NCBI GenBank assembly: GCA_017537025.1
Contig: JAFWCB010000004.1
Coordinates: 62,001-126,000 of the forward strand
Reading direction: 5' to 3'
From: Sediminibacterium sp.
Lineage (GTDB): Bacteria > Bacteroidota > Bacteroidia > Chitinophagales > Chitinophagaceae
DNA: 64,000 nucleotides
Part shown: one piece after another, positions 9,032 through 60,518 of the stretch
Numbering within the stretch: the first letter of the stretch is position 1
Layout: every line of letters begins with the position of its first letter
Notes under the pieces: generated by a model
Databases searched by the model: none
The model's input: the letters and a program-made list of their open reading frames with translations, nothing else
Told to the model about the DNA's origin: nothing
Program-made: the position numbers and the translations under genes

Positions 9032-9055
9032 AGTAACTAGGTGACTAAGTAACAA
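9032..9055. repeat. Octamer tandem array, root AGTnACTA
   Basis: Three degenerate 8-base units (AGTAACTA, GGTGACTA, AGTAACAA) sit right after the cytochrome stop codon. The root is the same as the larger array at 52824-52895. Confidence 0.75.
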
Positions 9056-9057
9056 CT

Positions 9058-9891
9058 TTATGGCTTACGGACTTTCCGACTTCCCGACTCACGGACTTCC
9101 TTTTTCAACGCCTCAACTTCTTTTTGCAGTTGAATCGTATACAGTGTAAGTTCTTCTACTTTTTTAAGGAGTAAGCCATTCATCTTACCTAAATCAAGTC
9201 CCTCTTTCATCACTTCCTCTGTAGATTGTATATCCGGTAAATGCTTGTTGGTTTGAATATATTTTTCTAATTGGTTCAATGGCATCAAACTGTATTTTTT
9301 ATCGAACACATGATCGAACCAATCTTTTGAGTTTTTGATAGCTACTTTTACTTTTTCTGTTAGGATACCTTGTTCTACAAATAATTTGTAGCCGTCTACC
9401 TGTGTATTCACATCCCCAATTTTTACGTGCCCTTCATAAGAATCGATGGAAAAGTATTCTTTTTCTGTTGGATCGGTACCTCCTTTAAAGGATATTTTAA
9501 ATGTTTGTGGGGTTTTGATGGTATTATCTCCCGAAACACGAGCACCAACCGTCCACCAACTTGCATTTTTAGGATTTGAATAATCACCGTTAAAGAACAT
9601 GATGGAAGGCTCATTCTGTCCGCTAGACGCCCAATCATTTGTAAGTTTTAGCAAAATATTTTTATTACGTGTATTACCGGCACCTTTTTTTATTTCGAGA
9701 GGGGCGGTAGGGGTAAGTGTACCAATACCTGCAAAACCGCTAGGGGAGAGTATATTCTCTTTTGATTCCTTACTGTTATCTGTTGTTTCGGTGCTGGTGC
9801 GAACTTTGCCACTGCTACTCGGCCTTTGTGCCAAAGCAATATTTACTGATAATAATCCAATAATACCAAGGGTATAAACTATACGCTTCAT
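9058..9891 (-). CDS. Secreted envelope/tail-fibre-like protein with C-terminal coiled coil
   Basis: A 277-residue protein with a signal peptide (residues 1-21, ending ALAQ). The middle resembles the repeat-poor bodies of Bacteroidota tail-fibre-like secreted proteins. The last third has the pattern seen before chaperone-of-endosialidase-like tails (VAIKNSKDWFDHVF, KYIQTNKHLPDI) and ends in a heptad coiled coil (about 238-266). Function unknown; likely a surface trimer. The last dozen or so codons and the stop come from an octamer repeat array (9059-9098), so the extreme C-terminus is probably not conserved. Confidence 0.75.
   Translation of the reverse strand: MKRIVYTLGIIGLLSVNIALAQRPSSSGKVRTSTETTDNSKESKENILSPSGFAGIGTLTPTAPLEIKKGAGNTRNKNILLKLTNDWASSGQNEPSIMFFNGDYSNPKNASWWTVGARVSGDNTIKTPQTFKISFKGGTDPTEKEYFSIDSYEGHVKIGDVNTQVDGYKLFVEQGILTEKVKVAIKNSKDWFDHVFDKKYSLMPLNQLEKYIQTNKHLPDIQSTEEVMKEGLDLGKMNGLLLKKVEELTLYTIQLQKEVEALKKEVRESGSRKVRKP
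9059..9098. repeat. Octamer tandem array, root nCCGACTT, inside a gene's 3' end
   Basis: Five 8-base units in a row (TATGGCTT, ACGGACTT, TCCGACTT, CCCGACTC, ACGGACTT). The array encodes the C-terminal residues and stop codon of the minus-strand gene that ends at 9058. Confidence 0.85.
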
Positions 9892-9943
9892 AGGTTGAAG
9901 TTATAACCCCTGTATAACGAATTTTATGGCTAATTAGTATGTA

Positions 9944-10930
9944 CTAGCGATGCGGGCGACCACTTTCAGTTTCTTCCCGTTCGTACTCTTTGTCGTAGGC
10001 TCTGATAATTGATTTTACCAAACGGTGACGAACCACATCCTCTTCATTTAGTTCAATATGAGCAATTCCGTCTATGTTTTTAAGGATCCGAGTTGCCTTA
10101 TCAAGCCCGCTGCGCATATTACGAGGCAGGTCTACCTGGGTAGGATCGCCTGTTATAATGGCTTTAGCATTGGCACCGATACGCGTTAAAAACATTTTTA
10201 GTTGAAGGTCGTTGGTATTCTGGGCTTCATCCAAGATAATAAATGCATTATCTAGTGTTCTACCACGCATATAAGCCAGCGGCGCAATTTCAATGGTACG
10301 AGTGCTCATGTAATAACCGAGCTTATCCGCAGGAATCATATCATCCAGGGCATCATACAATGGACGTAAATAAGGATCGATCTTTTCTTTCAGATCTCCG
10401 GGTAAAAAACCGAGGCTTTCTCCGGCTTCAACTGCGGGTCTGGTAAGAATTATTTTTTTGACTAATTTATTTTTGAGGGCTCTTACAGCAAGTGCAACGG
10501 CTGTATACGTTTTACCGGTACCTGCGGGTCCGATAGCAAATACGATATCATTACGATCCGCAGCATGAACCATTTTCTTTTGATTTTGTGTACGCGCACG
10601 AACAGTTTTACCGTTAGGGCCGAATACCAAAATATCGTTTGGATTTCGATCTACAAAATTATCTACAGTTTCGGCATCATCCCCGCCAAGAATTTGCTCG
10701 AAATAATTCTCACTAAGATGACCGTTTCTTTGTAGATACTGAACTATGAGATCTATTTTTTCTCGGGCTGTTTCGATTTGTTCAGGGGAGCCACTTAGTT
10801 TCAACTGTGTTCCTCGCGAGAGAATTTTCAATAGCGGGAATTTCTTCTTAAGTAAATCTAACTTTCCGTTGTTTACGCCAAAAAACTCGATAGGATTAAC
10901 GGTTTCGAGGCTGATGATGGTCTCTGTCAA
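9944..10930 (-). CDS. phoH: PhoH-family ATPase
   Basis: A 328-residue PhoH-like protein. Seen: an N-terminal KH-like RNA-binding region (about 1-75), a Walker A loop GPAGTGKT (134-141) and Walker B DEAQ (about 234-237). The family is cytoplasmic and linked to RNA metabolism and stress; the exact reaction is unsettled. The start is TTG at 10930: an in-frame stop lies eight codons upstream with no ATG between, and MTETIISLETVNPIEFFGVN is the usual N-terminus in this phylum. It stands alone, with a heptamer array upstream. Confidence 0.93.
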   Translation of the reverse strand: MTETIISLETVNPIEFFGVNNGKLDLLKKKFPLLKILSRGTQLKLSGSPEQIETAREKIDLIVQYLQRNGHLSENYFEQILGGDDAETVDNFVDRNPNDILVFGPNGKTVRARTQNQKKMVHAADRNDIVFAIGPAGTGKTYTAVALAVRALKNKLVKKIILTRPAVEAGESLGFLPGDLKEKIDPYLRPLYDALDDMIPADKLGYYMSTRTIEIAPLAYMRGRTLDNAFIILDEAQNTNDLQLKMFLTRIGANAKAIITGDPTQVDLPRNMRSGLDKATRILKNIDGIAHIELNEEDVVRHRLVKSIIRAYDKEYEREETESGRPHR

Positions 10931-11060
10931 TCTGCTTCTATTTAGTAGTTTTTAAAGAATGGATTCTTACTAACTTCCTGTTCAAATGTAATTCGTAATG
11001 ATGCACATTTCCTAATGATTCTTATACACAGATGTGGAAAGAATGGGGGAAAGCTAATGA

Positions 11061-11102
11061 GTAAAAGGTTAAAGGTGAAAGGTATAAGGTAAAAGGTGTG
11101 GG
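11061..11102. repeat. Heptamer tandem array, root GTnAAAG
   Basis: Six 7-base units: GTAAAAG, GTTAAAG, GTGAAAG, GTATAAG, GTAAAAG, GTGTGGG. The array lies between the rpe stop and phoH, both on the minus strand. Confidence 0.85.
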
Positions 11103-11119
11103 GAATAAAGTATATAAAA

Positions 11120-11767
11120 TTATATTGCTTTCAACCTTGCGATGGTTTCGATAGGGTCTGTTGATTTAAAAACAGTATTGCCTGCTACTAAAACATCAGC
11201 ACCGGCAGTTACAATATCCGGTGCATTCTCAATTGTTACCCCACCATCAATTTCTATTAGCGCTTTACTATTAGTGTTGATGATCATTTCTTTTAAAGAA
11301 ACTATTTTGTGTAATGTTTGTGGGATGAATGTTTGTCCGCCAAAACCAGGATTCACACTCATCAAACAAACCAAATCTATATCCTGAATAATATCTGCTA
11401 AAAAAGTTACAGAAGTATGTGGATTCAACGCCACACCCGCCCTCATTCCTAAAGATTTTATTTGTTGAATATTTCTATGTAAATGAGTACATGCCTCTAT
11501 GTGTACAGTCAAAATATCGGCTCCAGCTTCCTTAAATGCAGATGCATAATTGCCCGGTTCTTCAATCATTAGATGTACATCACAAACTTTAGTAGTGGCT
11601 TTACGAATATGTGCAATCACGGGAATACCAAAACTAATATTCGGTACAAATCTTCCATCCATTACATCTAAATGAAACCAATCCGCCTTGCTATTATTGA
11701 GCATGGTACAATCTCGTTCTAGGTTTAAAAAATCGGCACTTAATAATGAGGGTGCTATGATTGGCAT
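11120..11767 (-). CDS. rpe: Ribulose-phosphate 3-epimerase
   Basis: Interconverts ribulose 5-phosphate and xylulose 5-phosphate in the cytoplasm (pentose phosphate pathway). It has 215 residues, the usual length. Seen: IAPSLLSADF at the N-terminus, the metal-site segments HLDVMDGRFVPN and DVHLMIEEP, SVNPGFGGQ and the phosphate-binding GGVTIENAP and AGNTVFK. It begins seven bases after the TPR lipoprotein gene and is probably co-transcribed with it. Confidence 0.96.
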   Translation of the reverse strand: MPIIAPSLLSADFLNLERDCTMLNNSKADWFHLDVMDGRFVPNISFGIPVIAHIRKATTKVCDVHLMIEEPGNYASAFKEAGADILTVHIEACTHLHRNIQQIKSLGMRAGVALNPHTSVTFLADIIQDIDLVCLMSVNPGFGGQTFIPQTLHKIVSLKEMIINTNSKALIEIDGGVTIENAPDIVTAGADVLVAGNTVFKSTDPIETIARLKAI

Positions 11768-11774
11768 GATTATG

Positions 11775-12563: not shown

Positions 12564-13649
12564 ATGGCGAAAACATTACTCTATCTGCTCGGCTTAATCT
12601 CATCTGTTTCTATTATGGCACAGCCTAAAGTGGCTGCCGGAGATTCTTTATTATTTGAAGGAGAGAAGCATTTTAAAAATATTCAACAGCTAACTTTCGG
12701 CGGTGATAATGCCGAAGCCTATTGGAGTTATGATAGTAAGTATTTGATTTTTCAAAGAACAAATCCTAAGGAAGGATTGAATTGTGATCAGATTTTTATT
12801 GGGAAAGTGCCCGAAAAATTGGGAGAGCCTTTTACTTATAAAAGGATAAGTTCTGGTAAAGGAAGAACAACCTGTGCCTATTTCTTGCCCGATAACAAGC
12901 ATATTATATACGCCTCTACACATGAAGGTAGCGCTGATTGTCCGCCCGTACCCGATCGTGCCAAATATGGCAATAAGTATATATGGCCATTGTATGATAG
13001 CTATGATATTTATATGGCTGATCGTAATACCGGAAAAATTATCAAAAAACTTACTACGGCAAAAGGATATGATGCAGAAGCCACCTTATCGTACGATGGT
13101 AAGAAAATGATTTATTGTAGTGCTAAGGAAGGTGATTTAGAATTATATGTAATGGATTTAGCTACAGGTAAAGAGAAGCGTGTTACCCATGCACTAGGAT
13201 ATGATGGTGGTGCCTGGTTTTCACCCGATGGTAAAAAAATTGTGTGGCGTGCCAGTAGGCCTAAAACGGAAGCAGATGTGAAAGAATATAAAGATTTGCT
13301 AAAGGAAGGGTTAGTGGCACCAACTAATATGGAAGTGTGGGTGGCGAATGCTGATGGGAGCGATGCCAAACAAGTTACTGCTTTAGGACAAGCCAACTGG
13401 GCGCCCAATTTTACGGCAGATAGCAAGCGTATTATTTTTTGTAGTAATCACGAGTTTAAAAGAGGCTTTCCATTTAACATGTATATGATCAATCTCGATG
13501 GATCCAATATGCAAAAAATTAGTAGGGATAAAGGCTTCGATGCTTTCCCCATGATCAGTCCAAACGGTAAGAAAATAGTATTCGCTTCTAACCGTAATAA
13601 CGGCGGTACTCGCGATACGAATTTATTTGTAGCGGATTGGGTGGAATAG
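12564..13649 (+). CDS. Exported TolB-like beta-propeller (PD40 repeat) protein
   Basis: A 361-residue protein with a signal peptide (residues 1-19, ending IMAQ) and repeated PD40/WD40-like blades of the form D-G-K-K-I-V-F-x-S (for example YDGKKMIYCSAKEG, SPDGKKIVWRAS, SPNGKKIVFASN). Such propellers act as periplasmic binding modules; in TolB the partner is Pal. It lacks the TolB N-terminal domain and any peptidase domain, so it is not classical TolB or a dipeptidyl peptidase. Function unknown. Confidence 0.85.
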   Translation: MAKTLLYLLGLISSVSIMAQPKVAAGDSLLFEGEKHFKNIQQLTFGGDNAEAYWSYDSKYLIFQRTNPKEGLNCDQIFIGKVPEKLGEPFTYKRISSGKGRTTCAYFLPDNKHIIYASTHEGSADCPPVPDRAKYGNKYIWPLYDSYDIYMADRNTGKIIKKLTTAKGYDAEATLSYDGKKMIYCSAKEGDLELYVMDLATGKEKRVTHALGYDGGAWFSPDGKKIVWRASRPKTEADVKEYKDLLKEGLVAPTNMEVWVANADGSDAKQVTALGQANWAPNFTADSKRIIFCSNHEFKRGFPFNMYMINLDGSNMQKISRDKGFDAFPMISPNGKKIVFASNRNNGGTRDTNLFVADWVE

Positions 13650-13656
13650 AGTGCTT

Positions 13657-13742
13657 AATCTGCAATCTTCAATTTACAATCAGATAATAAAGATTGAATT
13701 CGCCTAGGCGAACCAGATTGAAGATTCCAGATTGAAGATTCA
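13657..13742. repeat. Inverted pair of heptamer arrays around a perfect palindrome
   Basis: Left arm 13657-13684: AATCTGC, AATCTTC, AATTTAC, AATCAGA. Right arm 13715-13742: AGATTGA, AGATTCC, AGATTGA, AGATTCA, the reverse complement of the left root. Between them is the perfect palindrome TTCGCCTAGGCGAA (13699-13712). AATCTTCAAT (13664-13673) pairs exactly with ATTGAAGATT (13731-13740), so the transcript can fold into a long hairpin. A 19-base piece of the right arm recurs at 19847-19865. Confidence 0.85.
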
Positions 13743-13751
13743 TAATTTATT

Positions 13752-13759
13752 TATCTTCG
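13752..13759 (+). promoter_or_regulatory. Possible -7 box before the gene at 13775
   Basis: TATCTTCG is close to TAnnTTTG. A TTG at 13732-13734, inside the repeat arm, lies 17 bases upstream, so the repeat may supply the -33 element. Confidence 0.35.
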
Positions 13760-13774
13760 GGCAAATTTTCTATT

Positions 13775-18224: not shown

Positions 18225-18572
18225 TTATTCTTTCATTATTTTTTCGCCTAACTCAACCAATAAACTTCCGAGTTTATATTTATCTGTTTTCTTTTGCTCA
18301 AGGGCGTCTGTTAATTTACCGGTATTCGTTTCTAAATCTTTCAGCTTGGCATTAATATCATTGATGAGATTATTAATAGCCGTATAAATTTCGCTGCGTG
18401 TTTGAGCAATGTATTGATCTACATCTGCCTTTTTCTGATCGATGGTTTTTCTCAATACTTCGAATTCTTTTTCGATCTGTTCCATATTCTCACCAAAAAT
18501 TAAATTTTTGATGGCTTCTATTTTATGCGTTGAATCGGGGGCGCCTCCGGTTTGGTTATATTCTGTACTCAT
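18225..18572 (-). CDS. Small coiled-coil protein heading the GTPase cassette
   Basis: A 115-residue soluble protein, predicted mostly coiled coil (about 35-100). The N-terminal stretch IEAIKNLIFGENMEQIEK (18-35) resembles the start of the next protein (LLHLKRLILNEDWNAAQR), suggesting a shared docking helix. I start it at the ATG at 18572 (MSTEYNQ); the longer ATG at 18638 would add 22 residues, overlap the hmgA start and lie upstream of a -7-like GAACTTTG (minus strand, 18604-18611). Six bases separate it from the next gene. Function unknown; scaffold or sensor partner is inference. Confidence 0.7.
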   Translation of the reverse strand: MSTEYNQTGGAPDSTHKIEAIKNLIFGENMEQIEKEFEVLRKTIDQKKADVDQYIAQTRSEIYTAINNLINDINAKLKDLETNTGKLTDALEQKKTDKYKLGSLLVELGEKIMKE

Positions 18573-18636
18573 GATTAATACATTCAGAGCCCCTAAAATA
18601 AAGCAAAGTTCCCTAATTTCATGCTTTAATATTGCC

Positions 18637-19794
18637 ATGCCACACTATCTCTCCCGAGGTTCGGTTCCTCATAAACGTCATACACAGTTCAGAAAGCCCG
18701 ATGGGGGCTTATATTCAGAACAATTATTTTCGACTGAAGGCTTTAGTAATGATTATTCCTTGCTATATCATATACATCCCCCTACACAAATAATTGCTAC
18801 CGATGAACCTTATGCTGTAGCCCCCGAGGTGGCAGAGGAGAAAATGCTTAAGCACCGTAGTTTTGAAGGCTTTAGCATTGAGCCCCAAATAGATTTTCTA
18901 TTGAGCAGAAAGCCTGTATTAGTAAATAACGACTGTCATATCGTTTTAGCTGCCCCCAAAAGCGGTACCGGCAACTATTTTTATAAGAATGCAGATGCTG
19001 ATGAAATGCTTTTTATACACGAAGGGAGTGGGGTGGTAAAAACACAATATGGACAATTACAGTTCAGTTATGGTGATTATATAGTGATACCCCGCGGAAC
19101 TATTTACCAGATTGATTTTGCGACTGATAATAACAGATTATTCATCGTAGAAAGTTTTAGCCCTATCCGGTATCCTAAAAGATATGTAAGCAAAGGCGGA
19201 CAATTACTTGAGCATGCCCCTTATTGTGAGCGAGATATTCGGGGGCCTGAAAATTTGCAAAGCTTTGATCAACAGGGCGATTTTTTAATTAAAACAAAGA
19301 AAAAAGGGATTATGTATGGCTTGCATTATGGCACACATCCATTTGATGTTGTAGGCTGGGACGGGTATTGCTATCCCTTTATATTTAGTATTCATGATTT
19401 TGAACCAATTACTGGTAGGGTGCATCAACCCCCACCCGTGCATCAAACTTTTGAAGCCCATAATTTTGTGGTTTGTAGTTTTTGTCCGCGACTCTATGAT
19501 TACCATCCCCAAGCCGTTCCTGCTCCTTATAATCACAGTAATATTGATAGCGACGAAGTATTGTATTATGTAGATGGAGATTTTATGAGTAGAAAAAATG
19601 TTACCAGAGGTATGATAACACTTCACCCCGCGGGTATTCCGCACGGGCCACACCCCGGCGCAGTTGAGAAAAGTATCGGTAAGAAGGAAACCGGTGAATT
19701 AGCCGTGATGGTTGATACTTTTCATCCATTACAATTAACCAAGCAGTCATTAGAAATTGAAAATGAAGGGTATACGATGAGTTGGGCGGAATAA
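18637..19794 (+). CDS. hmgA: Homogentisate 1,2-dioxygenase
   Basis: A ring-cleaving non-haem iron enzyme of tyrosine/phenylalanine breakdown (homogentisate to maleylacetoacetate), 385 residues, cytoplasmic. Seen: an N-terminal bicupin region, FDVVGWDGYCYPF, FEAHNFVVCSFCPR and the iron-site segment IDSDEVLYYVDGDFMSR followed by HPAGIPHGPHPG. I take the ATG at 18637 (MPHYLSRGSVPHKRH); the open frame extends further 5' only through the antisense of the coiled-coil gene. No other tyrosine-catabolic gene is beside it. It is divergent from the GTPase cassette. Confidence 0.93.
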   Translation: MPHYLSRGSVPHKRHTQFRKPDGGLYSEQLFSTEGFSNDYSLLYHIHPPTQIIATDEPYAVAPEVAEEKMLKHRSFEGFSIEPQIDFLLSRKPVLVNNDCHIVLAAPKSGTGNYFYKNADADEMLFIHEGSGVVKTQYGQLQFSYGDYIVIPRGTIYQIDFATDNNRLFIVESFSPIRYPKRYVSKGGQLLEHAPYCERDIRGPENLQSFDQQGDFLIKTKKKGIMYGLHYGTHPFDVVGWDGYCYPFIFSIHDFEPITGRVHQPPPVHQTFEAHNFVVCSFCPRLYDYHPQAVPAPYNHSNIDSDEVLYYVDGDFMSRKNVTRGMITLHPAGIPHGPHPGAVEKSIGKKETGELAVMVDTFHPLQLTKQSLEIENEGYTMSWAE

Positions 19795-19800: not shown

Positions 19801-19867
19801 AATCTTCAATCTTCAATCTTCAATCTGTGCCAAAAATCAGATTTTCAGATTCCAGATTGAAGATTAA
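19801..19867. repeat. Heptamer array with inverted arm, root AATCTTC
   Basis: Left arm: AATCTTC three times, then AATCTGT. Right arm 19847-19867: AGATTCC, AGATTGA, AGATTAA. AATCTTCAATCTG (19815-19827) is the exact reverse complement of 19853-19865, so a hairpin forms after hmgA. It shares AGATTCCAGATTGAAGATT with the copy near 13740. Confidence 0.9.
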
Positions 19868-19907
19868 ATAAGAATCCCTAACTTCCCTTTACAAAACGAA
19901 AAGCTAT

Positions 19908-21210: not shown

Positions 21211-21312
21211 ATATAAATCCTGCGTATTGGATATCTGCCGAAGGCGGAAGGAGAGAAACAGGTTCCCGCTGAGGGATATTTTTAAAAAGAAAGATTACCT
21301 AAAAAGAACAAA

Positions 21313-21723
21313 ATGGCAAAACCGCAAAAAGCACAAAACAGTGCGAAAGCAGCTGCTAAAAAAAGAGTGGTTAAAGTTGATGCTGCAGGTGAAGTAAGGA
21401 TCTCTGCTACTTTCAACAACATTATCATCAGTTTTACCAACAAAACCGGCCAAGTAATTAGCTGGAGCAGTGCTGGTAAAATGGGTTTTAAAGGATCTAA
21501 GAAAAATACTCCGTACGCTGCTCAAATGGCTGCCTCAGATGCTGCAAAAGTTGCATCCGAAGCTGGTTTGAAGCGTGTTGAAGTATATGTAAAAGGTCCT
21601 GGAGCCGGTAGAGAGGGGGCAATACGTTCTATCTCTCAATCAGGTATTGAAGTAATATCCATTAAAGATGTTACTCCTATGCCACACAATGGTTGCCGTC
21701 CTCCGAAACAAAGACGCGTTTAA
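21313..21723 (+). CDS. rpsK: 30S ribosomal protein S11
   Basis: A 136-residue protein of the 30S platform. Seen: an N-terminal Ala/Lys-rich extension, then [47 protein letters not shown] and the C-terminal [18 protein letters not shown]. The 143-base gap from rpsM is unusually long for this operon and holds two hairpins. Confidence 0.99.
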
Positions 21724-24205: not shown

Positions 24206-25303
24206 ATGCCTGTTCAAAAACAACCCGCCGTTTTACTGTTAGCAGATGGACATTTATTCTATGGTAGTGCTTTTGGTAAAATCGGTACTACAACCGGAGA
24301 AATTTGTTTTAACACCGGTATGACTGGTTACCAAGAAGTATTCACGGATCCTAGCTATACAGGCCAGGTACTCATTATGAACAATGTACATATTGGGAAT
24401 TATGGGGTTAAAGAATCGGATGTAGAAAGTAGCTCGGTTAAAATACGTGGACTTATTTCAAGAAACTTAGAAGAGCAATTTAGTAGGATACTGGCTTCCG
24501 AAAATTTGAATGCTTATTTACAAACTAACCATATTGTAGCTATTGATGGAGTGGATACACGCGCGTTAGTTGCCCATATTCGTACTAAAGGAGCTATGAA
24601 TTGTATTATTAGTTCTGAAACAAATGATATAGCCGCTTTAACTCAGCAACTCGATGCTACACCTAATATGGATGGACTGGAGCTTGCGAGCACAGTGAGT
24701 ACAACAGAAGAATACGAATTAGGTGATCCTAATGCGGCAATTAAAGTGTCAGTTTTAGATTTTGGTATAAAACAACATATCCTTGAATGTTTGGTTTCTC
24801 GTGGCGTACATGTACGTGTGCACCCTGCTAAAACAGCATATAGCAGATTAAAAGCTTTTAACCCCAACGGATACTTTATTTCTAATGGCCCCGGTGATCC
24901 TGCTGCAATGCCTTATGCAATAAGCACTGTTAAAGATATATTGTCTGAGAAAAAACCCGTATTTGGTATTTGCTTAGGTCATCAATTATTAGCACTTGCG
25001 AATGACATACCTACATTTAAAATGCATCATGGGCATAGAGGCTTGAATCACCCGGTAAAAAACATTATTACAGGGCAATGTGAGATCACAACCCAAAACC
25101 ATGGTTTTGGAGTTGATCCTGAAGCCGTTCGCAAACACGTAAACGTAGAAATAACACATCTAAACTTAAACGATGACTCCATTGAAGGTATTCGTTTAAA
25201 AGATCGACCTGCATTTAGTGTTCAATATCACCCTGAAAGTACACCAGGGCCGCATGATAGCAGGTATTTATTCGATAATTTCGTAGGGATGATGGGGGAT
25301 TAG
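24206..25303 (+). CDS. carA: Carbamoyl-phosphate synthase small (glutaminase) subunit
   Basis: Releases ammonia from glutamine for carbamoyl phosphate synthesis (arginine and pyrimidine pathways) with CarB, which is not in the window. It has 365 residues. Seen: the N-terminal CarA domain (GMTGYQEVFTDPSYTGQ) and a class I glutaminase domain with the nucleophile in FGICLGHQLLAL, and HPESTPGPHD at the end. It is separated from rplQ by a terminator, so it has its own promoter; TTCTTTTG at 24177-24184 is a weak -7 candidate. Confidence 0.97.
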   Translation: MPVQKQPAVLLLADGHLFYGSAFGKIGTTTGEICFNTGMTGYQEVFTDPSYTGQVLIMNNVHIGNYGVKESDVESSSVKIRGLISRNLEEQFSRILASENLNAYLQTNHIVAIDGVDTRALVAHIRTKGAMNCIISSETNDIAALTQQLDATPNMDGLELASTVSTTEEYELGDPNAAIKVSVLDFGIKQHILECLVSRGVHVRVHPAKTAYSRLKAFNPNGYFISNGPGDPAAMPYAISTVKDILSEKKPVFGICLGHQLLALANDIPTFKMHHGHRGLNHPVKNIITGQCEITTQNHGFGVDPEAVRKHVNVEITHLNLNDDSIEGIRLKDRPAFSVQYHPESTPGPHDSRYLFDNFVGMMGD

Positions 25304-25323
25304 ACTATAGACGATGGAAGTAG

Positions 25324-25358
25324 TTAGTGTTTAGTGCATAGTGGTTAGTGGTTAGTGA
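25324..25358. repeat. Heptamer tandem array, root TTAGTGn, over the aroQ 3' end
   Basis: Five 7-base units: TTAGTGT, TTAGTGC, ATAGTGG, TTAGTGG, TTAGTGA. The array contains the aroQ stop (25345-25347, minus strand) and its last four codons. The inverse orientation of the same root is found at 25797-25824 on the other side of aroQ. Confidence 0.88.
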
Positions 25359-25767
25359 GGAGCCAGGTGATGGCGAGTTCATATCCTTTTAAACCTAAGC
25401 CAAAAATACTTCCTGCGCATTTTCCACTTACATGAGAAAATTTTCTGAAGTCTTCTCTTGCATGTACATTACTAATATGTACCTCAACAACTGATGCTTT
25501 AACTGCTGCAACTGCATCACCGATGGCAACAGAAGTATGTGTGTATGCTGCAGGATTTAAAATAATACCATCCATGGAGAATCCGTATTCCTGTATGGCA
25601 TTCACTAATTCGCCTTCAATATTTGATTGAAAATATACTAATTCAGCTTCAGTAAACTTTGTTTTTAATTTTTCAAAAAACTGATCAAAAGATTCAGTTC
25701 CGTAAATATCAGTTTCACGCTTTCCTAATAAGTTGAGATTAGGGCCGTTAATAATTGCAATTTTCAT
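25345..25767 (-). CDS. aroQ: 3-dehydroquinate dehydratase, type II
   Basis: Third step of the shikimate pathway (3-dehydroquinate to 3-dehydroshikimate), a cytoplasmic dodecameric enzyme. It has 140 residues. Seen: INGPNLNLLGKRETDIYG (Arg17 and Tyr22 in the active-site loop), ILNPAAYTHTSVA and VEVHISNVHAREDFR with the catalytic His region. The terminal LTNH and stop are encoded by a heptamer array, so the native end may have been replaced by repeat sequence. It is convergent with carA. Confidence 0.96.
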   Translation of the reverse strand: MKIAIINGPNLNLLGKRETDIYGTESFDQFFEKLKTKFTEAELVYFQSNIEGELVNAIQEYGFSMDGIILNPAAYTHTSVAIGDAVAAVKASVVEVHISNVHAREDFRKFSHVSGKCAGSIFGLGLKGYELAITWLLTNH

Positions 25768-25796
25768 CCTTCTAAGATATAAAACTTATGTATATA

Positions 25797-25824
25797 ACCA
25801 CTATACACTACCCACTATGCACTA
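25797..25824. repeat. Heptamer tandem array, root nnCACTA, over a gene 3' end
   Basis: Four 7-base units: ACCACTA, TACACTA, CCCACTA, TGCACTA. It includes the stop (25808-25810, minus strand) and the last codons (VVHSG) of the YceI-like gene. It is the reverse complement of the root at 25324-25358. Confidence 0.85.
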
Positions 25825-26323
25825 CTCTTAAGTTGACCTTTACTTTATCTGAAAGTGACACGCTGTTCCCCCCAACATTAAAGCTGCGTCGATTAATCTC
25901 AAAACTTCCCTCGAATAAGTTACCGGCATCTAATTTTTTTACGGTAAAAGGGAATTGTATTTTTTCACTTTTACCTTTAATTGTAAGTACCCCTTCAAAC
26001 AAATATTTATTATCGGCTTGTTGCTTGATTGCTGTACTCGACATAGAAATAATATGAAAGTTGGCAACATCGAAATAGCCCGATTTTTTCAAATGATTAT
26101 CTCTTGCTTGAATACCGGTATTGATGGTAGCTGTAGATACTGTTGCCTGTATGCTACAAGCAGTAAGATTTTGCGGGTTCCAGCTAATATTGGTTTTCAA
26201 ATCACCCAAAGTTCCTTTTGTGGCGATACCAAAATTGTTAATGGTAAAACTTACCTCAGATTGTGCATGTATGGCTTGTAAGTAAATGAATATTAAAAGA
26301 AATATGAGTAATCTTTTTTTCAT
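25808..26323 (-). CDS. YceI-family periplasmic lipid-binding-like protein
   Basis: A 171-residue protein with a signal peptide (residues 1-20, ending IHAQ). Pattern of the YceI lipocalin-like barrel: VSFTINNFGIATKGTLGDLK, then SGYFDVANFHIISMSSTAIK, then YLFEGVLTIKGKSEKIQFPF. Family members bind isoprenoids or similar lipids in the periplasm; the ligand here is unknown. The C-terminal residues and stop lie in a heptamer array. Confidence 0.88.
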   Translation of the reverse strand: MKKRLLIFLLIFIYLQAIHAQSEVSFTINNFGIATKGTLGDLKTNISWNPQNLTACSIQATVSTATINTGIQARDNHLKKSGYFDVANFHIISMSSTAIKQQADNKYLFEGVLTIKGKSEKIQFPFTVKKLDAGNLFEGSFEINRRSFNVGGNSVSLSDKVKVNLRVVHSG

Positions 26324-26373
26324 TTTTTATTATTTCTGTAATACGAAAAATAAATAAAAATGTTTACTTGGAT

Positions 26374-27173: not shown

Positions 27174-28700
27174 ATGGCTTTAACAAATACTTATACCCGT
27201 AAAATAATTCTACTAATCATTATAGCTTCAGCCATAAAGCTGATAGCGAGCCCCTTTTTGGAATTAGGTAATGATGAAGTTTACTATTGGACTTATGCCT
27301 TACGACCTGATTGGAATTACTTCGATCATCCGCCCATGGTAGGGCTGCTTATAAGATTTACTACTTTTAATTTGAATTGGGTATCTGAGTTGTCTATTCG
27401 ATTGGGTAGTGTGGTGTGTGCGGCCATCAGTACTTGGTTTATTTTTAAAACAGGCAAGCTAATAAGTAACGAACGGGTAGGGTGGTATGCAGCTTTACTG
27501 TATACGGCTTCCATATATACTACATTTATTGCTGGTTTTTTTATTTTGCCTGATTCTCCACAAATGCCTTTTTATACAGCTGCATTATATGTGATGGTGC
27601 ATATCATACAAAAAAGAAATGAGGTGAATAGTTGGAGTACATGGCTAGTATTAGGGTTACTTATCGGATTGGCTGCATTATGCAAAGTTCACGGATTATT
27701 TTTATGGGTTGGGTTTGGTTTGTTTATGCTTATAAAGCGGAGAGATTGGTTACTGAACCCAAGACTATATATAGCCGGTATAATCAGTGTACTCTGCTTG
27801 TTACCCATTTTATATTGGAATATCCAAAACGATTTTATTACTTATAAGTTTCATTCAGGTAGGGTAACACATAGTGGAATAAATATTGAATCTTTCGGGA
27901 GAGAACTAATAGGGGAGTTTGCTTATCAAAATCCAATTATTTATGTGCTAATTATTATTGCCATCATTAGTTTTTTGCGCGGTGGTCTTCGGTTTCGACA
28001 GAGTAGAGTTAAGGTTTGGATATTTAGTATGAGTATCCCCATGCTATTAGTATTTTGGGGAATTGCATTGCGAAATCCTACATTACCCCATTGGAGCGGA
28101 CCTGCATTTATACCCTTATTTTTTTTAGCTGCTTTATGGTTGGATAAAAATGCTAAAAGGTCTGTGCCTATTAGTATTGCTGTGTCTTTCGTATTTATCA
28201 TTTTTACACTAATCGGTACTACTGCTATAGTACAATTTGCCCCTAGAAATTTTGGGAGTCAGGATAAAGAAAATTATGGTGAGTATTGCCCCACATTGGA
28301 TTTAAGTGGCTGGAAAGGTTTTGCTAAATCCTTTGATTCACTACGTAGTAAAGATATAACTGAAAAAATAATGAAACCCGATGATCCAATCATCACTAAC
28401 AAATGGTTTCCGGGAGCGCATATTGAATTTTATGTAGCTAGGCCTTTAAAAATGAATTTGATAGGTATGGGTGAATTGACCGATTTACACCAGTTTATTT
28501 GGTTAAATAAAGATCGTCCAAAGCTGGTAAATAGTGGAGATGCCTATTTAATTGTTCCCTCTAATATTCCACTCGATGTGTTATCGGCTTATAGTAAAGT
28601 ATTTCACGTGATTGAAAAACCAGTCATCATCAATCAGATTAGAAGTGGTGTTGTTGTAAGATATTTTTATGTGTATAGGATGAGAGGGTATAGGGGGTAG
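27174..28700 (+). CDS. GT39/ArnT-like membrane glycosyltransferase
   Basis: A 508-residue integral membrane protein with about 11-12 hydrophobic helices and the acidic first loop LGNDEVYYWTYALRP followed by YFDHPPMVGLLIR, characteristic of polyprenyl-phosphate-sugar-dependent transferases (GT39/PMT/ArnT group). It would move a sugar from a lipid carrier to lipid A, protein or another lipid on the periplasmic face; the acceptor is unknown. The last codons (MRGYRG) and stop are within a heptamer array. It is convergent with tamB. Confidence 0.88.
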   Translation: MALTNTYTRKIILLIIIASAIKLIASPFLELGNDEVYYWTYALRPDWNYFDHPPMVGLLIRFTTFNLNWVSELSIRLGSVVCAAISTWFIFKTGKLISNERVGWYAALLYTASIYTTFIAGFFILPDSPQMPFYTAALYVMVHIIQKRNEVNSWSTWLVLGLLIGLAALCKVHGLFLWVGFGLFMLIKRRDWLLNPRLYIAGIISVLCLLPILYWNIQNDFITYKFHSGRVTHSGINIESFGRELIGEFAYQNPIIYVLIIIAIISFLRGGLRFRQSRVKVWIFSMSIPMLLVFWGIALRNPTLPHWSGPAFIPLFFLAALWLDKNAKRSVPISIAVSFVFIIFTLIGTTAIVQFAPRNFGSQDKENYGEYCPTLDLSGWKGFAKSFDSLRSKDITEKIMKPDDPIITNKWFPGAHIEFYVARPLKMNLIGMGELTDLHQFIWLNKDRPKLVNSGDAYLIVPSNIPLDVLSAYSKVFHVIEKPVIINQIRSGVVVRYFYVYRMRGYRG

Positions 28701-28726
28701 GGTATAGGCTATAGGGTATAGGGTGT
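28685..28726. repeat. Heptamer tandem array, root AGGGTAT, over a gene 3' end
   Basis: Six 7-base units: AGGGTAT, AGGGGGT, AGGGTAT, AGGCTAT, AGGGTAT, AGGGTGT. The stop codon of the GT39 gene (28698-28700) is inside the second and third units. It fills the gap to the convergent tamB stop at 28737. Confidence 0.92.
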
Positions 28727-28736
28727 AAGAGGGTGC

Positions 28737-34914: not shown

Positions 34915-34933
34915 GGTATTTAGTTACGAGTTT

Positions 34934-34978
34934 CACCCTTCGACCGCCGCCTTTGGCGGGGCAGACAAGCTCAGGGTG
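34934..34978. repeat. REP-like palindromic element with nested hairpin
   Basis: The outer arms CACCCT (34934-34939) and AGGGTG (34973-34978) pair. The wider sequence, CACCCTTCGA and then GACAAGCTCAGGGTG, is a motif found in many bacterial intergenic REP-like elements. Inside is a second hairpin, CCGCC-TTT-GGCGG (34947-34959). Confidence 0.65.
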
Positions 34979-35026
34979 ACAACGGGTTATGAAATTTATT
35001 AGTTTATTTGCACAAAAATAGTTCAA

Positions 35027-50992: not shown

Positions 50993-51051
50993 TCGTCTTA
51001 TCGTCAGGTCGTCATACAGTAGAAGTTCCGACGACCCGACGCTCCGACGAG
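50993..51051. repeat. Inverted octamer arrays between convergent genes
   Basis: Left: TCGTCTTA, TCGTCAGG, TCGTCATA (50993-51016). Right: CCGACGAC, CCGACGCT, CCGACGAG (51028-51051). TCGTC pairs with GACGA, so the two arms fold back. The array starts right after one stop codon and ends two bases short of the other. The right root recurs at 60460-60483. Confidence 0.9.
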
Positions 51052-51896: not shown

Positions 51897-51920
51897 TGTA
51901 CTTGTTTTGAGAACGCAAAC

Positions 51921-52823: not shown

Positions 52824-52895
52824 AGTAAATAAATAACTAAGTTATAAAGATACCCGGTTACCTGATTACTTATGTACCTAGTTACTAAGCAATTA
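52824..52895. repeat. Octamer tandem array, root AGTTACTA, between divergent genes
   Basis: Nine consecutive 8-base units, including AGTAAATA, AATAACTA, GGTTACCT, GATTACTT, ATGTACCT and AGTTACTA. It spans nearly the whole gap between the xerD and YkgJ-like start codons, so the promoters must lie in or at the edge of it. Confidence 0.88.
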
Positions 52896-52926: not shown

Positions 52927-53427
52927 ATGCAAGTTAATCTTCGTTCGTTCAAACAGAAAGTAAGGCATCATCAAAAAAGAATGAAACGTTTTTTGAGTAA
53001 AGTTGAAAAAAATCCTCCACGTGGATTAGATAAGTTATCAGATACGTTAAATGCTGAAGTTTGGAAGGAAGTGGATTGTTTGAGTTGTGCTAATTGCTGC
53101 AAATCCATGAGCCCTACTTTCACCAATAAAGACCTAAAAAGAATTGCTGCTCACTTTGATATTACACCTGCAGAATTCAAAGCGAAATGGTTGTTTTTTG
53201 ATGAAGAAGATGGGGATTGGATGAATACTAAACAGCCTTGCCAATTTCTCAATACCGATAATAATATGTGTAGCATTTATGAGGTTCGACCGGCAGATTG
53301 CGCTGGGTTCCCTCATTTGAATAAAAAGAAAGTAACAGATTATATTCATGTGCATCAACAGAATATCAGTTACTGTCCGGCTACTTATAAGTTCGTTGAG
53401 AAGTTGGAAGAAAGGCTGAAAGCTTAA
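52927..53427 (+). CDS. YkgJ-family cysteine-cluster protein (copy 1)
   Basis: A 166-residue protein with the conserved cysteine pattern of YkgJ-like metal or Fe-S binding proteins: DCLSCANCCKSMSP, PCQFLNTDNNMCSIYEVRP, ADCAGFPH and YCPATYKF. The first 40 residues are basic and helical. Cytoplasmic; function unsettled for the family. A second member is at 56645-57160. Its stop codon touches a heptamer array. Confidence 0.88.
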   Translation: MQVNLRSFKQKVRHHQKRMKRFLSKVEKNPPRGLDKLSDTLNAEVWKEVDCLSCANCCKSMSPTFTNKDLKRIAAHFDITPAEFKAKWLFFDEEDGDWMNTKQPCQFLNTDNNMCSIYEVRPADCAGFPHLNKKKVTDYIHVHQQNISYCPATYKFVEKLEERLKA

Positions 53428-53460
53428 GGGGTAGGGAATAGGGTGTAAGGTTTAAGCTAT
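53426..53460. repeat. Heptamer tandem array, root AGGGTnT
   Basis: Five 7-base units: AAGGGGT, AGGGAAT, AGGGTGT, AAGGTTT, AAGCTAT. It begins within the stop codon of the upstream gene (53425-53427) and fills the gap to the convergent esterase gene. Confidence 0.85.
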
Positions 53461-57299: not shown

Positions 57300-59186
57300 A
57301 TGGCTGATGAGAAACAGGTAATTAGATATGACGAGGATTCGATACGATCGCTTGATTGGAGAGAACATATCCGCCTCAGGCCGGGTATGTATATCGGTAA
57401 ATTAGGAGATGGTTCTGCTGCTGATGATGGTATTTATGTACTTATTAAAGAAGTTATTGATAACTGTATTGATGAGTACACTATGGGTTATGGTAAGCAT
57501 ATAGATTTATCAATTGAAGGAAAATCAGTACGCGTTCGAGATTATGGTAGGGGTATTCCTTTAGGTAAAGTGGTAGATGTAGTTAGTAAAATCAACACGG
57601 GTGCTAAATACGATAGTAAAGCTTTCCAAAAAAGTGTGGGTTTGAATGGGGTAGGTACAAAAGCAGTAAATGCGCTAAGTAATTATTTTAAAGTTACAGC
57701 ATATCGGGATGGTAAAGAAAAAACAGCTGAGTTTGAAAAAGGGGTACTCATTAAAGAGCATAAAGAAGCTGCTACTAAAGAACCGAACGGTACGGAAGTA
57801 TATTTCACGCCAGATGATTCTGTGTTTCGTAATTTCCATTATATATATGAGTATTTAGAAAATCAGATTTGGAACTACTGTTATTTGAATGCAGGACTTG
57901 CCATAAATTTTAACGGGAAAAAATATGTAAGTAAAAATGGCTTACTCGATTTGCTACAGCGTAAAACGAATCCCGATGAATTGCGTTATCCCATCATTCA
58001 TTTAAAAGGAGAAGATATTGAGGTGGCACTTTCTCATAATAATGATTATGGAGAAGATATTTTTTCATTCGTCAACGGGCAATACACTACCCAAGGTGGC
58101 ACACATCAACAAGCATTTCGAGAGGCATATATAAAAGTAGTACGTGATTTTTTTAAGAAAGATTATGATGCTTCAGATATTCGTACAAGTATAGTTGCGG
58201 CAGTATCGGTACGCGTGCAGGAGCCTGTATTCGAAAGCCAAACTAAAACAAAATTGGGTTCTCAAACCGTATTTGAAGGTGGGCCAAGCATGAAGAATTT
58301 TGTACTGGAATTCTTAGCAAAAGAGCTGGATAACTTCTTACACAGAAATCCTACCACCGCAGATGCGCTCAAAAAAAGAATTGAGCAAAATGAAAGAGAA
58401 CGGAAAGAATTAGCTGGAATAAAAAAATTAGCTAATGAGCGCGCTAAAAAGGCCAATTTACATAACAGGAAACTGCGAGATTGCCGGGTACATTTGAATG
58501 ATGAATTACCTGCAAAAAATAAAGAAGCCTTTATTGCCTTACAAAATGAGAGTACTATTTTTATTACGGAAGGGGATAGTGCTAGCGGAAGTATTACCAA
58601 ATCTCGCAATGTAGATACACAAGCTGTTTTTAGCTTACGGGGTAAACCACTGAATTGCTTTGGAGAAACTAAAAAAGTGGTATATCAAAATGAAGAATTC
58701 AATTTACTGCAACATGCATTGAATATTGAAGAGGGACTCGAAGGATTACGCTATAATAATATTGTGATTGCTACCGATGCTGATGTGGATGGTATGCACA
58801 TAAGATTGCTTATTATGACTTTCTTCTTGCAATTTTTCCCGGATCTGGTAAAAAAAGGACATGTTTCTATTTTACAAACTCCTTTATTTCGTGTTCGCAA
58901 TAAACAAGAAACGATTTACTGTTATGATGAAGCTGAAAAGCAGGCGGCAATAAAAAAATTAGGTAATAAACCGGAGATTACCCGTTTCAAAGGATTGGGC
59001 GAAATCTCACCTGAGGAGTTTGGGAAATTTATTGGTCCCGATATGCGTAAAGATCCGGTTATTCTCGAACAGGGCGATCATATCCAAAGTTTACTGGAAT
59101 ATTATATGGGAAAGAACACCATAGAAAGGCAAGAGTTTATTATCGGTAATTTACGAGTGGAATTGGATTTGGTGGAAGAAAGGTAA
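57300..59186 (+). CDS. parE: DNA topoisomerase IV subunit B (ParE/GyrB type)
   Basis: The ATPase subunit that drives strand passage to unlink daughter chromosomes. It has 628 residues. Seen: GHKL motifs [20 protein letters not shown] and [15 protein letters not shown], and the TOPRIM motifs [10 protein letters not shown] and [12 protein letters not shown]. No gyrase-specific insertion is obvious, and the parC-like gene lies downstream, supporting ParE rather than GyrB. The final Arg codon and stop are part of a heptamer array. Confidence 0.93.
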
Positions 59187-59208
59187 TAGGGTATAGGTTA
59201 TAGGGCAT
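59181..59208. repeat. Heptamer tandem array, root AGGGTAT, over the parE stop
   Basis: Four 7-base units: AGGTAAT, AGGGTAT, AGGTTAT, AGGGCAT. The first unit supplies the last sense codon (AGG) and stop (TAA, 59184-59186) of parE. Same root as the array at 28685-28726. Confidence 0.88.
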
Positions 59209-59249
59209 GGAAAAGCTTATCATATTTATTAGAGAATAACGAAGTATAA

Positions 59250-60065
59250 ATGACACATGTAGTTTTTGAAGAAGCGAATAAAACGATTTTGGAACAAGTG
59301 ATTGATATGGATTCTTCACTTGCAGGCACGGTAACATGTATCCAGGATGATTATGCGGTTGGACCGCTGGGAGCCATTTATGAAACAGCCGGTTACCAAG
59401 AACGTAAGGCTTGGTGGGAGAAGGTTCTAGCGCATTCACCGTATACACAACAATTAGATTTAGTGAACGACAAACTTGTTGTTCATGAGCTCATAAAGCA
59501 ACTGGAAGAAGATCCAAATCTAGAAATTTGGATATGGATGGGACAAAATGCACACGATGTTTGTGGTTATTATTGGTTGATCAGTCAGTGTAAAGATTTT
59601 GCAGGAAGAATACAAGTATTATACTTGAACAATCTTCCTTTCTTCAATGAAAAAGGTAATATTTTTTATCCTACACACCTGCATGAAATACAACCCAAGG
59701 AGTTTATTAAAGCAAAAAAACTAGCTCGCCCAATCACATTGAGTGAGTTTGAAGTTGACCCCGATGAGTGGAGAAAAATTTGTAATGAAAATGATTTAGT
59801 TCGTTTTTTGGAAGGAGGGAAAAAGATTGTAGGTAAAGAAGTTGAATTCTATGATAAGTATATATTATCACAAATAAATACTGAGCCACAAAAACTTACG
59901 AAAGTGATAGCCAATACTTTGAATAAAATGCCCGTTAAAACAGGCGATGTGTTCTTGGTTTGGCGAATCAAAGAGTTAGAAGTCATAAACCGACTAGCTA
60001 TTCAGGGCGATTGGGAAAAGGGTTGGAAAGATATACAGGTGCAAAGTCAAACTGTTACAAACTAA
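59250..60065 (+). CDS. DUF1835-domain protein
   Basis: A 271-residue soluble protein. The start HVVFEEANKTILEQVIDMD, then CIQDDYAVGPLGAIYE and WIWMGQNAHDVCGYYWLISQ, match the DUF1835 pattern; the C-terminal helical part resembles DUF3658 (GDVFLVWRIKELEVINRLAIQ). Function unknown. Its stop overlaps the cupin start by one base (TAATG), so the two are coupled. They lie between parE and parC. Confidence 0.82.
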   Translation: MTHVVFEEANKTILEQVIDMDSSLAGTVTCIQDDYAVGPLGAIYETAGYQERKAWWEKVLAHSPYTQQLDLVNDKLVVHELIKQLEEDPNLEIWIWMGQNAHDVCGYYWLISQCKDFAGRIQVLYLNNLPFFNEKGNIFYPTHLHEIQPKEFIKAKKLARPITLSEFEVDPDEWRKICNENDLVRFLEGGKKIVGKEVEFYDKYILSQINTEPQKLTKVIANTLNKMPVKTGDVFLVWRIKELEVINRLAIQGDWEKGWKDIQVQSQTVTN

Positions 60066-60433
60066 TGCAAGTAAAAATAACAACAATAGATAAAATAGGT
60101 GAGGATGACCGTGGTGCGACCCATTTTTTTGATACTGATAGAAGCGGACAATTTATGATAGCCTATCGGAAAACAGGCAGCATAAGCGGAGGGCATTATC
60201 ACAAAGGTATTGCCCCTAAGAAAAATCCCGAGCAAATCATTATTATGCAGGGAGAAGCTCTGTTGAATTGGAAAGATGTGCGTACGAATGAAACGGGTTC
60301 TGTTACTATCCAAGCGCCTGCTATGGTAGAAATTTTTCCATACGTGTGGCATGAAGTGATATCTATCACTAATATTATTGTGTTTGAATTAAATGGACTG
60401 GAAGATGGAAGATCAGATACGTTTCGACTTTAG
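60065..60433 (+). CDS. Small single-domain cupin protein
   Basis: A 122-residue protein with a cupin barrel: SISGGHYHKGIAPKKNPEQI gives the His-x-His and Glu-type motif 1, and APAMVEIFPYVWHEVISI gives motif 2 with a histidine. It may bind a metal and act as an isomerase or sensor; unknown. I start it at the ATG at 60065, overlapping the upstream stop; the frame extends further 5' only inside the DUF1835 gene. A composite repeat array begins in its stop codon. Confidence 0.8.
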   Translation: MQVKITTIDKIGEDDRGATHFFDTDRSGQFMIAYRKTGSISGGHYHKGIAPKKNPEQIIIMQGEALLNWKDVRTNETGSVTIQAPAMVEIFPYVWHEVISITNIIVFELNGLEDGRSDTFRL

Positions 60434-60518
60434 ACCAGAGACGGTAGACCGGAGACGATCTGACGCTCCGACGACCCGACGCTATTCCTAATGACCAATG
60501 ACTAGTGACAACTGACTA
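60432..60518. repeat. Composite tandem array: three different roots in series
   Basis: First four heptamers AGACCAG, AGACGGT, AGACCGG, AGACGAT (60432-60459). Then three octamers CTGACGCT, CCGACGAC, CCGACGCT (60460-60483). After a short gap come four heptamers ATGACCA, ATGACTA, GTGACAA, CTGACTA (60491-60518). It fills the whole gap between the cupin stop and parC. Confidence 0.9.

Follow-up and report, generated by a model that had tools for sequence, protein, structure and literature searches.

Degenerate heptad and octad arrays at gene 3′ ends in a Sediminibacterium genome and its relatives

What are the short, imperfect tandem repeats that lie between the genes of a Sediminibacterium genome, and how do they come about? 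The question arises from a stretch of 64,000 nucleotides (GenBank assembly GCA_017537025.1, contig JAFWCB010000004.1, positions 62,001 to 126,000; G000:C17:62001-126000 in our numbering), called the window in the following. An initial interpretation made without database searches, referred to here as the sequence-only reading, had described units with a strict period of 7 or 8 bases at about thirteen sites of this window. The genome itself (G000) comprises 3.19 Mb in 29 contigs. As set out below, the arrays are numerous and hold their phase, draw on a shared vocabulary of units, are seated at gene 3′ ends and in part form inverted arms. Between sister genomes they change in unit steps and are found present, absent or replaced in place.

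Array frequency and position at gene 3′ ends

Arrays were scored as the best stretch of self-match between a sequence and the same sequence shifted by the period (+1/-1), with 10 as the standard threshold. Genes were called by a simple rule (open reading frames (ORFs) of at least 90 aa, largely non-overlapping), so that some gap borders are approximate. At this threshold, period 7 was found in 7 of the 32 gaps of the window (0.12 expected) and period 8 in 3 (0.14 expected), numbers that were reached by none and by one, respectively, of 200 dinucleotide shuffles of these gaps. Period 14, a multiple of 7, occurred in five gaps and periods 4, 11 and 16 in one gap each, while periods 5, 6, 9, 10, 12, 13 and 15 occurred in none. 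At scores of at least 9, 17 period-7/8 segments were detected at or beside the gaps of the window, which bears out the sites first described.

Relatives were searched for with a window gene that we take to be phoH. Among the 80 loci kept, the nearest by this gene (L032) belongs to the metagenome-assembled genome of an uncultured Flavihumibacter, nbed40b60 (G040), followed by Hydrotalea, Sediminibacterium and other Chitinophagaceae. G040, hereafter the sister, aligns across much of the window with 81-94% DNA identity, except for one 1.1-kb block with 72%. When the scan was extended to 1.38 Mb of the own genome, 87 of 536 gaps contained period 7 or 8, namely period 7 in 68 gaps (3.4 expected) and period 8 in 26 (4.0 expected). 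Period 14 was present in 50 gaps (3.4 expected); of the remaining periods, period 12 was the highest (12 gaps, 2.6 expected), and the others between 5 and 13 were present in 1-7 gaps each (2.4-6.6 expected). The sister showed the same pattern over 400 kb and 160 gaps, with period 7 in 25 (2.2 expected) and period 8 in 6 (1.4 expected). In coding sequence, examined in pieces of 100 bases, the excess of period 7 is slight at most: it was found in 20 of 3663 pieces from a 520-kb own sample (period 6 in 15, 12 in 15, 15 in 17, 21 in 20 and 8 in 6), in 0 of 476 pieces of the window and in 0 of 656 of strain DXS. Periods 7 and 8 thus lie far above shuffled gaps and are not due to chance. The peaks at 7, 8 and 14 also bear out the earlier statement that phase is held although units vary; few arrays are perfect (19801-19826; L150 16759-16808), and the majority are imperfect.

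The arrays are preferentially seated at gene 3′ ends. In the 1.38 Mb of the own genome, arrays were found in 19 of 71 convergent, 66 of 411 tandem and 9 of 121 divergent gaps (convergent versus divergent, p 0.0005). Within tandem gaps, 51 of 77 arrays are closer to the upstream stop than to the downstream start (p 0.006), stop and array are a median of 4 bases apart, and 31 arrays overlap the end of the upstream ORF compared to 10 that overlap the downstream ORF. On the plus strand, 20 arrays enclose the stop codon of the ORF itself. The description of the arrays as confined to gaps is therefore inexact, since those at 9024, 25301, 28685, 53412 and 59181 contain the stop codon of the upstream gene. 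The per-gap order convergent, tandem, divergent was also observed in DXS, Niastella and the S. goheungense/Con.Enr. set, whereas Longitalea differs (convergent, divergent, tandem). With 38 neutral arrays set aside, the purine/pyrimidine orientation was 33:13 at 3′ ends and 13:13 at 5′ ends (p 0.08). Folding energies were calculated for gaps of 40-160 bases, and folding was strong in the convergent gaps with arrays of Niastella (n = 3) and S. goheungense/Con.Enr. (n = 4).

Shared unit vocabulary and turnover between genomes

The roots had been described as many and unrelated. They instead recur across gaps of the genome, and some merge in phase, as in the sister counterpart of the array at 25301-25357, which runs from TAGGG over TAGAC to TTAGTG units. 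Counting two arrays as alike at a local score of at least 14, with one array reversed as control, 138 of 1176 own pairs (window plus 520 kb) were alike versus 29 in the control, and 77 of 637 own-sister pairs versus 14. Between genera, the corresponding values were 77 of 1813 versus 53 (own-DXS), 86 of 2450 versus 66 (own-Niastella), 34 of 784 versus 15 (own-S. goheungense set) and 19 of 800 versus 33 (Niastella-S. goheungense set). Given the strong likeness within the genome and with the sister and the small excess between genera, the vocabulary is mainly one per lineage: it is common to the genome and its sister species and much weaker between genera.

Among 110 own arrays scoring at least 11, the unit families (reversed control in parentheses) comprise [AT]AGG with 28 (5), AATCTnn with 20 (0) and TGAC/TAGTG with 16 (0) arrays, and the octads GACTT/GTCGG with 7 (0), CGTC with 5 (0), CTTnGCG with 4 (0) and AGTnACTA with 2 (0); AATT (8 vs 7) and TAGAC units (10 vs 6) are barely above this control. 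The TATAGGG array at 28685-28727 has 16 further matches in the sister genome, and TATAGGn x3 was found in 2 of 395 genomes across the phylum, one of them the own genome. AATCTnn x4 was found in 35 of the 395, with 37 matches and none reversed in the own genome, although the reversed control fails elsewhere because many of the matches listed there are AATCTAA, which is unchanged by reversal. Heptad arrays extend beyond Chitinophagaceae: G257, G221, G367 and other genomes of the same class and one genus contain many AATCTnn arrays, chiefly AATCTAA among the matches listed.

Part of the arrays have an inverted partner. With partners accepted within 120 bases and four controls (direct, reversed, complemented, foreign-array), this applied to 10 of 49 own arrays (window plus 520 kb) versus 0, 0, 1 and 2, to 12 of 37 in DXS versus 2, 1, 4 and 1, and to 8 of 16 in S. 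goheungense/Con.Enr. versus 0, 0, 2 and 0. Inverted arms are supported in these three sets and not clearly in two others. A search with the element at 13650-13760 (E up to 0.01) yielded 55 matches in the own genome, one being the element itself, and 37 matches in the sister. Inspected by eye, most of the 28 loci listed of the best 30 are two-armed, with AATCTnn and nnAGATT units around variable loops; some contain the centre TTCGCCTAGGCGAA or a variant of it, and a few the centre alone or one arm. The form ATTCGCCTAGGCGAA (centre at 13699..13712) is exact in 1 of 202 loci.

In 106 orthologous gaps of the own and the sister genome, an array, in a few cases plain A/T-rich sequence, was present in both for 23 gaps, in the own genome only for 5 and in the sister only for 6; the other 72 have none. 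The lengths differ by steps of exactly 7 bases at 25768, 28701 and 59187, and by 14 and 13 at 25304. In all aligned gaps, 29 insertions or deletions (indels) touch arrays, five of 7 bases, two of 14, six single-base and the remainder of differing length, compared to 49 outside arrays, of which 30 are single-base and none has 7 or 14 bases (7/29 vs 0/49; Fisher p ~6e-4). This comparison, which the sequence-only reading had proposed, revealed gain or loss of units between sister genomes. Whole arrays turn over as well. The sister has a two-armed stretch of 107 bases at 51897 that is missing from the window, and in seven gaps, judged by eye, both genomes have an array or hairpin whose family differs, a replacement in place (19795, 50993 and the left half of 60353 in the window; L276 5766, L285 3644, L294 7053 and L304 8368). 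Point hypermutation of the arrays was considered and rejected: a first count of 0.201 versus 0.091 stemmed largely from replaced arrays forced into alignment. With 22 of 34 array gaps kept and 12 left out, the values were 0.128 and 0.109, the array lying above its flank in 14 of 22.

The survey of relatives covered 80 named loci of differing length in 21-kb samples. Their 787 gaps contained period 7 in 84 cases, period 8 in 39 and other periods of 5-13 in 8-15 (6.2 expected). The distribution across relatives is patchy. Gaps with period 7 accounted for 10 of 16 in Longitalea luteola, 6-8 of 14-15 in four Niastella, 4 of 16 in DXS, 4 of 13 in S. goheungense and 4 of 9 in the sister, while 49 of the 80 loci, including 7 of 11 named Sediminibacterium (manual count), had none; Flavihumibacter cheonanensis WS16 and Sediminibacterium sp. 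C3 belong to the latter. Samples of 100 kb gave 2 of 36 and 0 of 45 gaps for two genomes that each consist of one contig and are assigned to the same genus, compared to 18 of 47 for DXS.

Slippage and copying as a proposed origin, and the alternatives

We give an even chance to the explanation that these are degenerate heptad and octad arrays of the type of the cyanobacterial short tandemly repeated repetitive (STRR) sequences, grown by slippage, rewritten by copying and tolerated or used as 3′ stem-loops. New units would arise through slippage with a step of 7 to 8 bases during DNA synthesis. Copying would take place from one hairpin arm to the other, and likewise among arrays at other sites of the genome with 4-5-base cores in common; it would keep the phase, create inverted arms and spread the genome's own words, and copying between core-sharing arrays might thereby rewrite one gap with another family. 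Gene 3′ ends would tolerate this turnover best. The AATCTnn hairpins, with their little changed cores, probably also act as stem-loops at transcript 3′ ends, in termination or end protection.

In favour of this explanation are the period spectrum of the own genome, the unit-sized indels, the shared vocabulary, the replacement in place, the inverted partners, the seat at 3′ ends and the rarity of changes in the AATCT core (figures below). Neighbouring units are also more similar than in shuffled order (0.734 vs 0.613; 125 period-7 arrays from all sets; 0/200 shuffles), a test biased by the choice of arrays for likeness of neighbouring units.

Several results weigh against this explanation. Copying from a different array was not observed directly: neither genome contains, at another place, a full-length match to the 107-base hairpin of the sister (E up to 0.01). 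Of the indels that touch arrays, 22 of 29 have lengths other than 7 or 14 bases. Point changes are similar in arrays of unchanged family (129/1007) and in the rest of the gap (149/1362), with 60/975 at gene edges (22 gaps). Sister-DXS pairs were alike in 33 of 481 cases versus 12 in the control, an excess between genera that a purely lineage-made vocabulary would not give. Inverted arms are not above controls in Niastella (13/50 vs 10, 6, 3 and 10) and hardly so in Longitalea (9/22 vs 8, 3, 1 and 3). Own gaps with arrays do not consistently fold better than gaps without, the latter represented by a random sample of ~60%, and no consistent T-run was seen by eye behind the AATCT hairpins, which are therefore unlike ordinary intrinsic terminators. 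Finally, none of the genes tested (Ku, RAYT, SbcD, Y-family polymerase) cleanly separates array-rich from array-poor relatives.

The Y-family polymerase was dismissed as a separator, being present in 17 of 17 genomes. For SbcD, the cut-off was reached in 0 of the same number of genomes, rich or poor (12/17 with weak matches below it), and in 8 of 14 control genomes. Loss of SbcCD does not separate rich from poor genomes and was rejected as the cause; it would be a permissive background at most. Possibly these 17 Chitinophagaceae or related genomes lack SbcCD, a hairpin nuclease, as a group.

The arrays could alternatively derive from small mobile hairpins that are spread by a RAYT-type transposase, associated with repetitive extragenic palindromic (REP) elements, and whose units are then multiplied by slippage, an origin that we consider unlikely. 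PF01797 scored above the cut-off in all 8 array-rich genomes (G000, G040-G046) versus 3 of 8 array-poor ones (G010, G047 and G049; no match in G011, G017, G021 and G048, below cut-off in G050), and is present in G051, which is intermediate in arrays; several array-rich genomes are large (7-8.5 Mb), so this correlation may be one with size. REP palindromes are dispersed between genes and have a conserved GTAG/GGAG foot, and we know of no heptad arms in them. Only the AATCTnn family resembles them, being short, dispersed and palindromic, with the 55 own matches mentioned above and a centre common to part of its members. At the RAYT genes themselves, where the cognate palindromes of such systems lie, an inverted heptad array was found in the gap before the gene in Niastella caeni (L212) and Longitalea luteola (L214), but arrays occupy about half of the gaps in Niastella and Longitalea, and this is therefore little evidence there. 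The own (L203) and the sister (L211) RAYT genes have palindromes of other kinds beside them, and no array was found there. Furthermore, the array families number at least seven, differ in root, have periods of 7 or 8 and one or two arms, and as such hardly resemble the substrate of a single transposase. Behind the RAYT-like gene of the sister, about ten imperfect copies of CTCTAACCCCGAAGGGGTGA (L211 1951-2355) form a palindrome family outside the heptad vocabulary.

Slightly less probable again appears a function as tandem binding sites, in which cores of 4-5 bases at a spacing of 7 or 8 would be kept by selection for a DNA- or RNA-binding protein. In the AATCT family, substitutions avoid the core (3/125 vs 6/36 in the spacer, p 0.004; five gaps, five core and two spacer bases). 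The counts were 39/205 versus 17/56 (p 0.10) for all gaps and 0/110 versus 6/30 (p 6e-5) with 12 gaps left out; the value given first was obtained after one of these 12, L285 3644, had been readmitted and only chains of three were accepted. In [AT]AGG, the largest family, no significant core effect was found (18/152 vs 16/87, p 0.18; nine gaps). Unit columns of 73 arrays are unequally conserved under a corrected null (121.2 vs 82.2, sd 5.3; 0/300 simulations), whereas a first null without ceiling showed no effect (458 vs 449); selection or copying among core-sharing units could each produce such inequality. Against binding sites also speaks that families substitute for one another within the same gap, and that eight neighbouring proteins tested belong to unrelated families.

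It is very improbable that stop-bearing units are retained because their period, indivisible by three, places reserve stops in every frame after a gene. Among arrays overlapping a gene end, the part behind the stop alone provided stops in all three frames in 18 of 24 cases on the sense versus 7 of 24 on the antisense strand, a bias expected of arrays that were chosen because they already terminate a reading frame. For arrays lying wholly behind the stop, it vanished at 0-30 bases (9 of 21 versus 9 of 21) and was not significant farther away (11 of 25 versus 7 of 25, p 0.10 on stop density), and stop-codon selection was rejected. AATCTTC and AATCTGG units, read forward, contain no stop, and periods 5, 10 and 11 would serve equally well, yet are not enriched. 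Still less credible is a by-product of Ku-dependent end joining, of which short templated duplications are a known outcome: in 12 genomes searched, PF02735 had no match in the array-rich G040, G045 and G046 and was present in the array-poor G049 and G050, a distribution that contradicts it and led to its rejection. Chance runs in low-complexity gaps, which only a few A/T-rich segments such as 26316-26335 would fit, are refuted by the great excess of periods 7, 8 and 14 over shuffles, with little or none at other periods, and have practically no probability left.

Related repeats and the individual arrays of the window

According to the excerpts of PMC4692102 and PMC4679880, heptanucleotides are in excess among long simple repeats and slippage with a step set by the polymerase contact length was proposed (Mrazek et al., 2007). 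The excerpt of PMC4692102 adds that, as of 2015, heptameric repeats lacked a detailed literature, and describes GGGAATC / GGGGA(C/T)T heptamers of Xanthomonas and Nostoc, intergenic, partly in inverted pairs and variable between close relatives, as well as three heptamers in Calothrix STRRs. TAACTGA repeats are reported for Beggiatoaceae, cyanobacteria and five Bacteroidetes, in some with other heptamers alongside (PMC4679880, excerpt), and heptads of the Nostoc trnL intron base pair into a hairpin, with variable copy number and further indels (Costa et al., 2002, as described in PMC3488679). Heptamer excess, STRRs, the trnL-intron hairpin and TAACTGA repeats are thus already known. The earlier statement that no description exists in Bacteroidota has to be limited by the five Bacteroidetes, and otherwise stands in so far as, among the matches listed from open-licence PMC papers, no other account of heptamer repeats in Bacteroidetes/Chitinophagaceae was found beyond PMC4679880. 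For a multi-family vocabulary, replacement in place and a seat at 3′ ends, we did not find a description in the searchable open-licence papers.

In architecture, the arrays are closest to the cyanobacterial STRRs (Calothrix, Nostoc), as initially suggested, both being tandem imperfect heptamers, head to tail without spacers, with several units per genome and many loci. STRRs are known only with a 7-base unit and, at many loci, from filamentous cyanobacteria. The arrays described here differ in the enrichment of period 8, in their occurrence in Bacteroidota (nearest named loci Chitinophagaceae), and in their inverted arms, 3′-end bias and lineage-specific words. The TGACCAA unit at 60490 presumably is the reverse complement of a Calothrix STRR unit. 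The head-to-tail arrangement of 7-8-base units without spacers also argues against CRISPR, as stated before; Cas genes were not searched for. Part of the arrays resemble the P6b-type hairpin of Nostoc trnL in having degenerate heptads in two pairing arms, in Niastella not beyond controls; that hairpin occupies one place inside a tRNA-Leu intron, whereas here many gaps and several families are concerned. No tRNA gene was found in the window; introns were not searched for with Rfam. Long simple repeats, which were counted in the 2007 work, are perfect repetitions beyond chance length; a few arrays seen here are perfect and most are imperfect, with a vocabulary and replacement in addition. As far as the excerpts go, the preference for period 7 and the proposal of slippage are common to both. 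Like the Xanthomonas/Nostoc GGGAATC repeats, the arrays are intergenic heptamers, partly in inverted pairs, that vary between close relatives, but in the excerpt the former represent one G-rich word type studied as G-quadruplex. They resemble the TAACTGA repeats, as excerpted, in forming heptamer arrays between genes, in bearing stops in every frame, in overlapping some gene ends and in the presence of other heptamers; they differ in using several words, with a unit other than TAACTGA, and in lying mainly behind stops, while in Maribeggiatoa, according to the same excerpt, TAACTGA is found mainly before start codons.

It is possible, if doubtful, that gene 3′ ends are "slots" which are continually rewritten, a fixed copying step of 7-8 bases building and overwriting arrays and two-armed hairpins from the genome's words, and that cyanobacterial STRRs, the Nostoc trnL hairpin, Xanthomonas GGGAATC and Beggiatoaceae TAACTGA repeats result from the same process. 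Among these related genomes, arrays abound in some and are almost missing from others, and named strains belong to either side. Together with a step length that can be measured and with the turnover seen at orthologous sites, this makes the origin of the 7-8-base steps and a possible role of the 3′ hairpins directly testable. The arrays of the window are compiled in Table 1.

Table 1. Arrays and array-like segments of the window, with their setting and their counterpart in the sister genome.
Position	Feature	Setting, counterpart or basis
9024..9097	Period-8 array pair, AGTnACTA then CGGACTTC units	Contains stop of 8417-9028 (+), extends into 3′ end of 9058-9891 (-)
11061..11097	Period-7 array GTnnAAG	22 nt behind end of 11120-11767 (-), presumably a ribulose-phosphate 3-epimerase gene; sister: same array kind, units changed
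13657..13680	Left arm of inverted pair, AATCTnn units	Behind 12564-13649 (+)
13699..13712	Palindromic centre TTCGCCTAGGCGAA	Exact or near-exact in part of the family
13715..13750	Right arm of the 13657 pair, nnAGATT units	Period scan
19801..19826	Left arm AATCTTC x3.7	Behind 18442-19794 (+); sister gap has AATTAAG/AATTATn units instead
19843..19868	Right arm nnAGATT	Period scan, comparison with sister
21302-21329, 26316-26335	Segments resembling plain A- or T-rich sequence	Score at least 9
25301..25357	Period-7 array TAGACTA to TTAGTGG	Contains stop of 24206-25303 (+); sister +14 and +13 bases
25799..25824	Period-7 array CACTAnn, inverted relative to 25301-25357	Over 3′ end of 25808-26323 (-); sister +7
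28685..28727	Period-7 array TATAGGG	Contains stop of 27174-28700 (+); sister +7
51028..51049	Period-8 array CCGACGAC	Sister: inverted repeat of AAGTA/TACTTAG-type words instead, under array threshold
52826..52885	Period-8 array AGTAACTA / GTTACCTA, inverted	Divergent gap; retained in sister
53412..53456	Period-7 array AAGG/TAGGG	Contains stop of 52927-53427 (+); absent from sister
59181..59204	Period-7 array TATAGGG	Contains stop of 57300-59186 (+); sister +7
60431..60457	TAGACnn/GAGACnn units	Period 14 in TRF
60454..60481	Period-8 array GACGATCC	Sister: TAGGG units instead
60490..60516	Period-7 array TGACnnA	Ends 8 nt ahead of start of 60525-63038 (+); retained in sister

The gene for a class II dehydroquinase (25345-25767, PF01220) is flanked by the arrays at 25301-25357 and 25799-25824, which belong to the same family and have opposite orientation. 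Between divergent genes at 34915-35026, the window contains a palindrome, CACCCTTCGAC...CTCAGGGTGAC, which we believe to resemble one from other bacterial genomes; the sister has a heptad array at this place. Outside the window, on contig C6 of the own genome, the perfect array of L150 (16759-16808) consists of seven GGAGACC units in a divergent gap and, being unlike the imperfect rest, is a candidate variable locus.

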